From Qipengyuania vesicularis (GTDB lineage: Bacteria > Pseudomonadota > Alphaproteobacteria > Sphingomonadales > Sphingomonadaceae), in NCBI RefSeq assembly GCF_019711415.1, contig NZ_JAIGNJ010000001.1, positions 179,001 through 243,000 of the forward strand: a DNA stretch of 64,000 bases, read 5' to 3'. Under the pieces are notes generated by a model, which was not told the DNA's origin, ran no database searches, and saw only the letters and a program-made list of their open reading frames with translations. The position numbers and the translations under genes are program-made. Shown one piece after another: positions 29,925 to 33,281 of the stretch (position 1 is the first letter of the stretch; each line of letters begins with the position of its first letter).

Positions 29925-31046
29925 ATGCGGATCGCGGTGCTCAAGGAGCGTGCACCCGGTGAAAGCCGGGTCGCCATCACGCCCGAAACGGTGAAGACAT
30001 TTGCCGCTTTGGGAGCCACAATCGCGATCGAGGAGGGGGCGGGGGTTACCGCCTCCATATCCGACGAAGCCTATCGGGAGGCCGGGGCCGAAGTGGTTTC
30101 CGGCCCCAAGGCTGTCGAAGGCGCGGATATCGTGCTGGGCGTACAGGCGCCGGACGTCATGGCCCTGGCCGGGGCGAAACCGGGCGCCTGGGTGGCGGCG
30201 ACCTTCGATCCTTTCCGCAATGGCGAGCTGGTCGAGGCCTATGCCAAGGGCGGCTTCGAGGCGCTCTCGATGGAATTCATGCCGCGGATCACGCGTGCGC
30301 AGAGCATGGATGTGCTCTCCAGCCAGTCGAACCTCGCCGGTTACAAGGCGGTGCTGACCGCGGCCAACGAGTATGGCCGCGCCTTCCCGATGATGATGAC
30401 CGCCGCCGGCACGGTGCAGGCGGCGAAAGTCTTCGTTATGGGCGTGGGCGTGGCGGGCTTGCAGGCCATTGCGACCGCTAAGCGGCTGGGCGCGCAGGTG
30501 AGTGCGACTGACGTGCGCTCGGCAACCAAGGAACAGATCCAGTCGCTCGGTGCAAAACCGGTGTTTGTCGAGGAAGTGGCGGGCATCGAGGGCGAAGGTT
30601 CGGGCGGCTATGCCACCGAGATGAGCGAGGAATACCAGAAGGCGCAGGCAGAGCTGGTGAGCTCGCATATCGCCAAACAGGACATCGTCATCACCACCGC
30701 GCTGATCCCCGGCCGGCCCGCGCCGAAGCTGATTTCGGACGCGCAGATTGCAACGATGAAGCCCGGCAGCGTGATTTTCGACCTTGCCGTGGCGCAGGGC
30801 GGAAATGTGGAAGGTTCGCAACCCGACCAAACCGTCGAAAAGCACGGCGTGAAGATCGTAGGCTATTCGAACACCGCAGGGCATCTCGCCGCAGACGCTT
30901 CGGCCCTGTTCGCGCGCAATCTGTTCAACTTTCTCTCCGCCTTCTGGGACAAGGAAGCAGGCAAGCCAGTCCTCGACGAGGAAATCGGCGATGCCGTCCG
31001 CCTCACGCAGGGCGGGAAGGTCGTGAACGAGAGGCTGGCGGGTTGA
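29925..31046 (+). CDS. pntAA: NAD(P) transhydrogenase subunit alpha part 1
   Basis: The 373-residue protein is the soluble NAD(H)-binding domain I of a split proton-translocating transhydrogenase, as in Rhodospirillum. It has the N-terminal RIAVLKERAPGESRVAITP, RAQSMDVLSSQSNLAGYKAV, and the nucleotide loop MGVGVAGLQAIATA. It works with PntAB and PntB to make NADPH using the proton gradient. The gene is followed immediately by an overlapping small lipoprotein gene that is not part of the usual operon. Confidence 0.93.
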   Translation: MRIAVLKERAPGESRVAITPETVKTFAALGATIAIEEGAGVTASISDEAYREAGAEVVSGPKAVEGADIVLGVQAPDVMALAGAKPGAWVAATFDPFRNGELVEAYAKGGFEALSMEFMPRITRAQSMDVLSSQSNLAGYKAVLTAANEYGRAFPMMMTAAGTVQAAKVFVMGVGVAGLQAIATAKRLGAQVSATDVRSATKEQIQSLGAKPVFVEEVAGIEGEGSGGYATEMSEEYQKAQAELVSSHIAKQDIVITTALIPGRPAPKLISDAQIATMKPGSVIFDLAVAQGGNVEGSQPDQTVEKHGVKIVGYSNTAGHLAADASALFARNLFNFLSAFWDKEAGKPVLDEEIGDAVRLTQGGKVVNERLAG

Positions 31047-31423
31047 AAGCAGGATTGGCTTTCGTACTGCTTGTGGCATCCTGCGGTGCACCTTCGGCGG
31101 GCGGCCAATCCACGGAAGACGGTCTAAGCGACGCGTATTGGGCAATGAGAGACGCAGGCGTTTGTGCCTCGTTGGACCCGCGAACTGAAATTCGTGCCTA
31201 CTGGGAAGAGGTGGAGCGGACCGAGAACCTGTTGTTCGAGGGGTGGCGGTCCGGGTTGGGCGAAAAGCTCACGGCGGCAAAGACGTCTTGGGAGGAGGAC
31301 GATGCAGTGTCAGACAAAATCTGCCCCTTTCAGATGCAGGGCGCAGCTGAAGAACCCAGTCTCAAGCAATATGCTGAGGCAAATGACGCCATTGAGGCGG
31401 CAATAGCAGCGGAGGCTGGTTAG
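31043..31423 (+). CDS. Small lipoprotein inserted between pntAA and pntAB
   Basis: The 126-residue protein has TTG as its start at 31043, overlapping the pntAA stop (TTGA). A lipobox, LLVASC, lies at about residue 14, so it is probably a short lipoprotein with an acidic mature part (three cysteines, ICPF). Its TAG overlaps the GTG of pntAB by one base. This tight overlap with both neighbours shows co-translation. It is not normally found in this position. The function is unknown, and no known domain is recognised. Confidence 0.65.
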   Translation: MKAGLAFVLLVASCGAPSAGGQSTEDGLSDAYWAMRDAGVCASLDPRTEIRAYWEEVERTENLLFEGWRSGLGEKLTAAKTSWEEDDAVSDKICPFQMQGAAEEPSLKQYAEANDAIEAAIAAEAG

Positions 31424-31707
31424 TGGACTTCATTTCAATCCTGTCGATTTTCGTGCTGGCGTGCTTCGTCGGCTATTACGTGGTCTGGTCGGTCACGCCC
31501 GCGCTGCACACGCCGCTGATGGCGGTGACCAATGCGATTTCCTCGGTAATCATCGTCGGAGCGCTGATAGCGGCGGCGGCGGCGGATGTACCGGGGGCGA
31601 AGTGGTTGGGGCTGCTCGGTATCGTGCTCGCCAGCGTGAATATCTTCGGCGGGTTTGCGGTTACGGCGCGAATGCTCGCCATGTACAAGAAGAAGGAGAA
31701 GAAGTGA
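31423..31707 (+). CDS. pntAB: NAD(P) transhydrogenase subunit alpha part 2
   Basis: The 94-residue membrane protein has three hydrophobic helices, with VTPALHTPLMAVTNAISSVI and GLLGIVLASVNIFGGFAVT, the pattern of PntAB. It forms part of the proton channel together with the PntB membrane region. Start is GTG at 31423. The stop overlaps the pntB start (TGATG). Confidence 0.93.
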   Translation: MDFISILSIFVLACFVGYYVVWSVTPALHTPLMAVTNAISSVIIVGALIAAAAADVPGAKWLGLLGIVLASVNIFGGFAVTARMLAMYKKKEKK

Positions 31708-33281
31708 TGAAGCGCTTCCTCTCCATTCCGTCATTGCGAGGCGACGCAGTCGCCGCGGCAATCCATCGCCCTCGCGCGTGGCTAAGTGGTCGGTCGATGG
31801 ATCGCGTCGTCGCTTCGCTCCTCGCGATGACGATGCTTGTTTTTGCCACACCTGCCCATGCCGCGACCGGCGAGACGGTGAATCCGTGGGTGGCACTCGC
31901 CTATCTCGTGTCGGGCGTATTCTTCATCCTCGCGCTGCGCGGCCTGTCCTCGCCCGCGACGAGCCGGACGGGCAACCGTTTCGGCATGATCGGCATGCTG
32001 ATTGCGGTGGTGACGACGCTGGTGACGCACGACATTGCCAATATCGTCGAGATCCTGATCGCAATTGCGGTCGGTGGGGTCATAGGCCTCGTTATCGCGC
32101 GGCGCATTGCGATGACCTCAATGCCCGAGCTGGTCGCGGCGTTCCACTCGCTCGTCGGCCTTGCCGCGGTGCTGGTGGGCTGGGCAGCCTATCTCAATCC
32201 GGGAGCCTTCGGCCTGCTGACCGACACCGGCATCGGCGCGGTTTCCAAGGTCGAGATGGGTCTTGGCATTGCCATAGGGGCGATCACCTTCTCGGGCTCG
32301 GTCATCGCCTTTGCCAAGCTGTCGGGACGAATGAGCGGCTCGCCGATCCTCTTGCCTGCGCGGCACGTCATCAACCTCGGCACGCTGGCGGCGATCATCG
32401 TGTTGACGGCGCTCTTCGCCATGGCCGGACCTGCCGAGACCATGCCGCTGATCATCGCGCTGACGGTGCTCGCCTTCCTCATCGGCTTCCTGCTGATCAT
32501 TCCCATCGGCGGGGCGGATATGCCGGTCGTGGTCTCGATGCTGAACAGCTATTCGGGCTGGGCGGCGGCGGCGATGGGCTTCACGCTCGGCAATACGGCG
32601 ATGATCATCACTGGCGCGCTGGTCGGGTCCTCGGGCGCTATCCTCAGCTACATCATGTGCCGCGCGATGAACCGCAGCTTTATCTCGGTGATCGCAGGCG
32701 GGTTCGGCGCAGACGATAGCGGCGCTGGCGGCGGAGAGGCGAAGGAGCAGCGGCCCTACAAGCAGGGCAGCGCGGCCGATGCGGCCTTCATGCTCGAGCA
32801 GGCGGAAAAGGTCATCATCATCCCCGGCTACGGCATGGCAGTGGCGCAGGCGCAGCACGCGCTTCGTGAGATGGCCGACATGCTGGAGGAGAAGGGCGTG
32901 GAGGTGAAATACGCCATCCACCCCGTCGCCGGGCGGATGCCGGGGCATATGAACGTGCTGCTCGCCGAAGCGCAGGTGCCTTACGAAAACGTGTTCGAGC
33001 TGGAGGACATCAACAGCGAATTCGCGCAGGCCGATGTCGCCTTCATCATCGGCGCGAACGATGTGGTGAACCCGGCGGCCAAGACCGACAAATCATCGCC
33101 CATTTACGGCATGCCCGTGTTCGATGTGGACAAGGCCAAGCAGGTCTTCTTCATCAAGCGCTCGATGGGTGGCGTGGGCTATGCCGGGGTCGACAACGAC
33201 GTATTCTACATGGACCAGACCATGATGCTGCTGTCCGATGCCAAGAAAATGGTCGAGGAAATCGTGAAGGCGCTCGACTAA
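31707..33281 (+). CDS. pntB: NAD(P) transhydrogenase subunit beta, with repeat-derived N-terminal segment
   Basis: The 524-residue protein has the membrane part with VEILIAIAVGGVIGLVIARRIAMTSMPELVAAFHSLVGL and a C-terminal NADP(H)-binding domain III (IIPGYGMAVAQAQHALREM, IIGANDVVNPAAKTDK). Residues about 8-42 come from a palindromic repeat element inserted in frame (31730-31831). The residues before (MKRFLSI) and after (MLVFATPAHA) would together make a normal signal-like leader, so the insertion enlarges the N-terminus. ATG at 31707 is coupled to pntAB; GTG at 31704 is an alternative. Confidence 0.9.
   Translation: MKRFLSIPSLRGDAVAAAIHRPRAWLSGRSMDRVVASLLAMTMLVFATPAHAATGETVNPWVALAYLVSGVFFILALRGLSSPATSRTGNRFGMIGMLIAVVTTLVTHDIANIVEILIAIAVGGVIGLVIARRIAMTSMPELVAAFHSLVGLAAVLVGWAAYLNPGAFGLLTDTGIGAVSKVEMGLGIAIGAITFSGSVIAFAKLSGRMSGSPILLPARHVINLGTLAAIIVLTALFAMAGPAETMPLIIALTVLAFLIGFLLIIPIGGADMPVVVSMLNSYSGWAAAAMGFTLGNTAMIITGALVGSSGAILSYIMCRAMNRSFISVIAGGFGADDSGAGGGEAKEQRPYKQGSAADAAFMLEQAEKVIIIPGYGMAVAQAQHALREMADMLEEKGVEVKYAIHPVAGRMPGHMNVLLAEAQVPYENVFELEDINSEFAQADVAFIIGANDVVNPAAKTDKSSPIYGMPVFDVDKAKQVFFIKRSMGGVGYAGVDNDVFYMDQTMMLLSDAKKMVEEIVKALD
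31730..31831. repeat. 102-bp palindromic dispersed repeat within the pntB 5' coding end
   Basis: The element begins GTCATTGCGAGG and ends CTCGCGATGAC. The arms, at about 31730-31768 and 31794-31831, are imperfect reverse complements over 38 bp, with GCAATCCATCG on the left and CGATGGATCGC on the right. This is the known family of palindromic repeats in alphaproteobacteria, and the length is divisible by three, so the reading frame remains open. No second copy was found in the window. Confidence 0.8.

Follow-up and report, generated by a model that had tools for sequence, protein, structure and literature searches.

In the sections of Di Nocera et al. (2013, PMC3733652) drawn on here, CGTC-tagged REPs are described as mainly alphaproteobacterial repeats that form head-to-head dimers and come without a dedicated transposase, and RPE-4 and RPE-6 of R. 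conorii are placed in the same superfamily. These sections also report CGTC REPs inside genes, dnaE2 and truB among them, voice the suspicion that many N-terminal REPs are untranslated, and give differing REPs at about one site solely for recB of two Xanthomonas species. In the corresponding parts of Delihas (PMC2229807), conserved genes contain Rickettsia palindromic elements (RPEs) in frame, one of the resulting proteins being made and active, and in Yersinia YPO1552 a MITE supplies part of a predicted signal peptide, for which a new exported protein was proposed. The part of PMC12306157 covered here contains nothing on coding REPs. A literature search, mostly of sources outside subscription, listed no match whose title or abstract opening mentions a palindrome in a pntB leader, and a search by the repeat letters returned nothing relevant among the matches listed.

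The window, that is, the whole stretch of 64,000 nucleotides of Qipengyuania vesicularis DNA that was analysed, carries two CGTC-tagged hairpins in inverted orientation, in frame within pntB (Table 1). The relatives of its genome are Qipengyuania (Sphingomonadales). A sequence-only reading had described a palindromic repeat translated in the early part of pntB; its sequence and coordinates for the repeat proved correct and the observation as a whole was confirmed, and its interpretation was supported in part. The pntB ATG overlaps the stop codon of the preceding small-subunit gene (TGATG), Pfam matches in the operon are to pntA, the 4TM subunit and PNTB, and PF02233 (PNTB) covers PntB residues 63-521 (E 4e-194). 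The closest solved PntB chain, 9l76_C (462 residues), which we take to be E. coli PntB, lacks the leader: its residue 6 aligns with residue 62 of the window PntB. The repeat had been placed inside a respiratory membrane protein; its site is instead a signal-peptide-like leader that is probably not part of the mature protein and is missing from the solved E. coli-type PntB. The window also has a 126-codon ORF with a lipoprotein-like start between pntA and pntA2 (31043-31423; no Pfam match at E 0.1), and near 32010-32050 (PntB residue 108 or so) many same-genus PntB proteins have a variable extra stretch at which matches split and which by eye holds no obvious palindrome.

Table 1. Positions of the repeat and of the pntB features around it in the window
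Feature	Position	Strand	Remark
CGTC-tagged inverted dimer, family A	31729..31832	.	104 bp with tags; translates as residues 8-42
Left unit: CGTC tag, hairpin, CCA tail	31729..31765	+	
Right unit, layout as left unit (CGTC tag, hairpin, CCA tail) on the opposite strand	31796..31832	-	
Upstream subunit gene (PNTB_4TM, pntA2/pntAB)	31423..31707	+	stop overlaps pntB start
AAGGAG, likely pntB ribosome-binding site	31693..31698	+	8 nt upstream of ATG
pntB	31707..33281	+	524 codons
Leader, residues 1-52; motif-predicted end is the signal-peptidase site (PAHA)	31707..31862	+	putative cleavage
In-frame internal ATG (MDRVVASLLAMTMLVFATPAHA)	31797..31799	+	chief rival start
Remaining hydrophobic core and cleavage motif (MLVFATPAHA)	31833..31862	+	

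Each of the two hairpins has its CGTC tag outermost and its CCA tail innermost, and the outer inverted repeat of the element is CGTCATTGCGAGG/CCTCGCGATGACG. ATCCA directly follows the stem in both units, so that the unpaired tail fits CCA. The stems of family A consist of 5+6 bp with internal loops in the left unit and of 6 bp with a large inner part in the right unit; predicted to fold as separate hairpins, the left half reaches -15.1 kcal/mol and the right half -10.3 kcal/mol. Self-complementarity is limited to the outer 13 bp or so and the two hairpins. In an ungapped end-to-end comparison 17 of 52 positions agreed, a value reached by 5257 of 20000 shuffles and therefore at the level of chance. 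Of the earlier description as a 102-bp imperfect palindrome, the outer inverted repeat and the two hairpins are real, strict end-to-end palindromy is not, and the length with tags is 104 bp. The predicted fold of the 121 nt around the element is strong (-55.9 kcal/mol, z -2.57; 3 of 200 shuffles equally good), and Rfam gave no match at E 1 across 31400-32200.

BLAST of the element against its own genome (2.71 Mb) found four further places, and pattern scan and inspection gave five inverted dimers of family A, including the pntB copy, and one half copy. Judged by the ORFs around them, the four other dimers are intergenic. The genome also has two dimers that belong to another family: the first separates genes read as serC and serA, and the second is in frame in a polymerase gene read as resembling dnaE2, whose Pfam domains are those of DNA polymerase III alpha. 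Over 60 genus genomes, a paired strict pattern detected 37 window-family dimers in 13 genomes, and strict patterns of the other families detected 226 dimers in 39 genomes, pntB copies included in both counts; the reversed controls gave 0 throughout. Since a short unpaired pattern with one mismatch was mostly noise (59 matches vs 28 in the control), only paired copies and one exact half copy were counted. The claim that the repeat family is dispersed is thereby borne out. A meaningless chance hairpin in GC-rich DNA is ruled out by the dispersed copies and the empty paired-pattern controls, despite the chance level of end-to-end self-complementarity that would favor it, and has practically no probability left. 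A RAYT-driven REPIN is ruled out as well: PF01797 had no match in the own genome, and none of the 5 of 60 genus genomes with a match carries a pntB element.

Other genes of the genus also hold CGTC palindromes in frame. The dimer in the dnaE2-like gene belongs to a CCCCGG family and occurs in four genus genomes including that of the window (L195:1501-1588, equal to G000:C2:13238-13325; L222, L231 and L251). In two genomes a 2-oxoacid dehydrogenase E2 gene contains a VIPAKAG-type dimer ahead of the E3-binding domain (L232 and L264; the element starts at base 1001 and stops 1000 bases short of the end), and truB contains another palindrome (L254).

PntB was present in 114 of the 118 genomes searched. 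Within the genus, 56 of 60 genomes were usable, three having no pntB match and one a C-terminal piece only; rows L076 (genome of L036), L079 (genome of L020) and L001 (place of L006) were removed, and families A-G and the letter rules were defined post hoc, after the leaders had been viewed. A CGTC palindrome was present in the leader at 17 of the 56 same-genus loci, the window included, and the others comprised 22 exact 56-base leaders, 14 other leaders, two CTCCCC palindromes ahead of a later start and one locus cut by a contig end, so that 36 loci (the 22 with the 56-base leader among them) have no repeat family in the leader. The location had been called unusual, which does not hold within the genus, where four palindrome families occupy it. 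No relative was found that shares the window's N-terminus without the palindromy; the 56-base leader encodes a plain and typical signal peptide, e.g. MRRLLLAAPFALLATPAHA. What would remain after excision of the element, proposed earlier to be a short leader, is not exactly the leader of a relative, and the net difference from the 56-base leader is 99 bases.

The 17 carriers comprise three loci of family A (window-like), four of B, nine of C and one of D, and the peptides encoded by these families are unrelated (PSLRGD.., VIPAKAG.., RRPGPRAG.. and VTPAQAG.., respectively). Outside the genus, three further open leaders with a palindrome were found, in Erythrobacter sp. EC-HK427, a Sphingomonadaceae MAG and a Sphingopyxis MAG. 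Over all 20 pntB elements the tag is CGTC in 18, TGTC in one (L132) and CGAC in one (L039), and the window copy is tagged at both ends; the element of L042 ends at 114. Porphyrobacter sp. GA68 (L099) has about 1010 bases of extra DNA between pntA2 and pntB. The contig of L011 (G054, C113) stops at the leader, roughly where a CCCCGG-type palindrome would be expected, as though the repeat had interrupted the assembly.

All 17 genus elements are in frame with the upstream ATG, and each of these leaders has a length of 2 mod 3. These lengths represent six distinct family-length states (A155, B122, C152, C155, C161 and D140), for which the chance expectation is (1/3)^6 = 0.0014 if they are independent. 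The test was restricted to the genus because the label 'translated' itself requires the frame, and L080, L086 and L132 are illustrative only. The tags start at nucleotide 18 of the ORF in family B, 23 in A, 24 in D and 25 in C, and thus in all three codon phases. Stop codons were counted in the element itself, since some whole leaders begin with TGA: the pntB frame contained none in 17 carriers, and the other two frames contained stops in 16 and in 6, the 16 of the +1 frame being owed largely to the invariant TGAC with which the element ends. Every carrier retains AAGGAG and the overlapping ATG, with identical 18 bases before the ATG. Three features favor translation of the element: a ribosome-binding site, a start codon that overlaps the preceding stop, and a frame kept in all 17 carriers. 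With the frame kept and no stop, PntB would still be made from the upstream ATG. The sequence-only reading had asked whether the start lies downstream of 31831, and nothing found in the sequence puts it there.

Variable columns at codon positions one, two and three of the element numbered 8/3/5 in family A, 8/4/6 in B and 9/15/15 in C, compared with 1/0/13 (A carriers) and 5/1/12 (B carriers) over the opening 105 bases of the pntB core. Element substitutions thus show no third-position excess and give translation no support, which means that the element's amino acids themselves are unconstrained; the result is as expected for a free leader and equally for untranslated DNA. It agrees with an alternative in which the element belongs to an untranslated 5' region: PntB would begin within the element or downstream of it, perhaps at the ATG at 31797, which would itself open a fair signal peptide, and the annotation from 31707 would be too long. 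Each of the three A copies in the genus has a suitably placed in-frame ATG, palindromes occur at the same pntA2-pntB junction but ahead of a downstream start in several Sphingomonas and others, and Di Nocera et al., in the sections drawn on, suspect the same of many N-terminal REPs (PMC3733652). However, an untranslated stretch would not need to keep one frame through six length states without a stop, nor does a late start account for AAGGAG and the overlapping ATG kept in all carriers, and family B has no later ATG that leaves a hydrophobic core (MTMWATPAHA only). We regard a late start as unlikely.

All 20 leaders, 17 from the genus and three from outside, end in PAxA after a hydrophobic stretch. 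Their best 9-residue hydropathy (KD9) ranges from 1.30 to 2.71, with weak cores in the B and D leaders (1.30-1.60) and values of 1.78 and 1.90 in L039 and L132, compared with 1.93-2.91 in 23 plain leaders. Judged from the hydrophobic core and the A-x-A motif, the leader is probably cleavable by signal peptidase. The repeat itself encodes part of the hydrophobic stretch, IPAFAGMTMWATPAHA in family B and VVASLLAMT in the window. Two phases give an open reading of the CGTC dimer end, one neutral (VT/MT) and one acidic (GD), and all seven pntB alleles, including the three outside the genus, use the neutral phase. The control consists of three genes only, of which dnaE2 and truB have the acidic end and the E2 linker the neutral one; the neutral-phase bias (7/7 vs 1/3, small numbers) is what a requirement for a hydrophobic core would yield.

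For the control of insertion sites, 75 other dimers from 17 genomes were fetched along with six own-genome dimers, together representing 79 of 263 strict dimers among the matches listed and two looser own-genome copies; pntB copies, the fragmented genomes G042 and G029, and G059 (judged to repeat G016) were omitted. Among the dimers listed, 14 groups have both flanks in common between genomes, and 7 of the 14 carry different families, as between the genes read as serC and serA. Different-family pairs at shared sites numbered 11 among the dimers listed, the expectation being 0.8, 2.2 or 4.4 for 2700, 1000 or 500 equally likely places, with the pairs non-independent. Element boundaries at these sites are close but mostly non-identical, several bases apart, and in two same-family groups (L224/L259 and L225/L249) the flanks beside the element align poorly. 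Since different families occur at shared places, reuse of a place looks general, and pntB looks like a strong, apparently translated case of it.

Such reuse could also be read as one ancestral palindromic leader altered in place, or swapped by exchange with other palindromes, in place of several insertions; the almost identical place of different families in pntB would fit this, as would the differing families at 7 of the 14 further sites shared between genomes (among the dimers listed). Start positions and phases differ by family, however, the families have little in common beyond their tags, and boundaries at the other shared sites are several bases apart, which makes a single ancestral leader very improbable. 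A bolder proposal, doubtful as it stands, is that CGTC palindromes hold fixed genomic addresses, at which place and palindromic form would persist while the sequence family is swapped over time by a mechanism directed to places that are permissive or palindromic already; such a swap in pntB would rewrite a translated, working signal peptide.

Alternatively, the palindrome might be maintained because it serves a function: an RNA hairpin close behind the site of the initiating ribosome could tune pntB translation or its coupling to the preceding gene, or could stabilize the message. The strong predicted fold agrees with this, as do the narrow range of tag starts in the genus (nucleotides 18-25), the palindromes of different families at other shared sites, and genomes G036 and G047, in each of which the pntB copy is the sole strict copy of its family left. 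But 36 of 56 same-genus loci do without an element, its presence is patchy, and the site is also no more than the interval that separates the start from the hydrophobic core. A functional hairpin thus seems quite unlikely to us.

Identity among the three A copies of the genus is 86-92%, compared with 51-68% between them and the other four dimers of the own genome, which argues that these three copies descend from one insertion, whereas the differing start positions and phases among families argue that the families are separate insertions. Within families, identity of the leader vs the rest of pntB is 0.867 vs 0.890 for A and 0.859 vs 0.871 for B; since these leaders diverged about as much as the remaining gene, the A and B alleles are old and their recent spread is ruled out. 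C leaders are more diverged (0.702 vs 0.856), similar to plain leaders (0.731 vs 0.851). The alleles are scattered on the pntB tree, requiring 18 changes for 7 labels. With 8 labels, where the A group included L080, which lies outside the genus and represents an insertion of its own, 19 changes were needed compared with a shuffled mean of 21.1 (as low in 7 of 200), so that labels are slightly more clustered than shuffled ones. Strongly supported branches force at least three changes for A and for C and two for B. A carriers are not grouped on this poorly resolved tree (26 of 60 inner branches open), and the nearest relative shifts along the length of pntB. Because of the scatter, losses, replacement or recombination must be added to the account, and old insertions followed by any of these are possible.

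Taken together, our results lead us to a reading, to which we give a probability of about three in four, in which CGTC dimers of several families inserted separately, in frame, into the PntB signal peptide and are translated as part of a leader that is cleaved. A non-autonomous CGTC-tagged palindromic dimer of the REP/RPE superfamily would have entered by transposition between the start and the hydrophobic core in an ancestor of the species, and PntB would still be made from the upstream ATG because the insertion was in frame and free of stops. At its end the lengthened leader retains a hydrophobic stretch and PAxA and would probably be removed by signal peptidase, leaving the mature enzyme unchanged and the insertion presumably neutral. 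Different families would have arrived separately in the genus, only in-frame insertions with a neutral end surviving. All three phases combined with a frame that is always kept point to separate insertions that are translated and that the cell tolerates, the leader being probably cleaved off. Since exact sequence matters little in a signal peptide, the leader would be among the few dispensable coding places in a tight operon; it is as if signal-peptide leaders were safe landing sites for palindromic repeats.

For one gene, these data bear on the published doubt whether N-terminal repeats are really translated, and several families in different phases that all keep one frame provide a test beyond any single genome. 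A sequence-tolerant, discarded signal peptide offers a plain reason why such insertions survive. The leaders form a natural allele set in marine bacteria for testing insertion tolerance, and sites shared by different families open the mobility of CGTC repeats to testing.

Compared with known systems, the element resembles the CGTC-tagged REPs, as presented in the sections of PMC3733652 drawn on here, in its CGTC tag, AT at the stem base, CCA tail, head-to-head dimers, alphaproteobacterial host, lack of a dedicated transposase as judged by PF01797, and copies in dnaE2 and truB. Unlike CGTC-1 to CGTC-4 of that paper (stem 8-9 bp, loop 4-5 nt), family A has a larger stem and loop and is therefore assigned to the CGTC superfamily only; the family B arms, by eye, have an 8 bp stem and a GAAA loop. 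Like REPs and REPINs, these are short palindromic dimers scattered through the genome, but REPs and REPINs with a RAYT transposase differ from them in that the own genome has no PF01797 match. The element had been called reminiscent of Rickettsia palindromic elements, a good likeness: it is a palindromic element of about 100 bp in frame in conserved protein genes (here pntB; dnaE2, the E2 gene and truB in relatives), and its tag, inverted dimer and in-frame residence fit the superfamily that, in the same sections of PMC3733652, includes RPE-4 and RPE-6. The host here is free-living, unlike Rickettsia, the insert lies in a predicted removable leader, and the likeness is one of description. As in Yersinia YPO1552, in the account of Delihas used here (PMC2229807), a small mobile repeat contributes to a signal peptide, but there a new exported protein was proposed, whereas here the signal peptide of a conserved enzyme is lengthened, and by several repeat families. 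The kind of repeat is thus already known from CGTC REPs and Rickettsia RPEs, and the convergence of several families on one signal peptide looks new.
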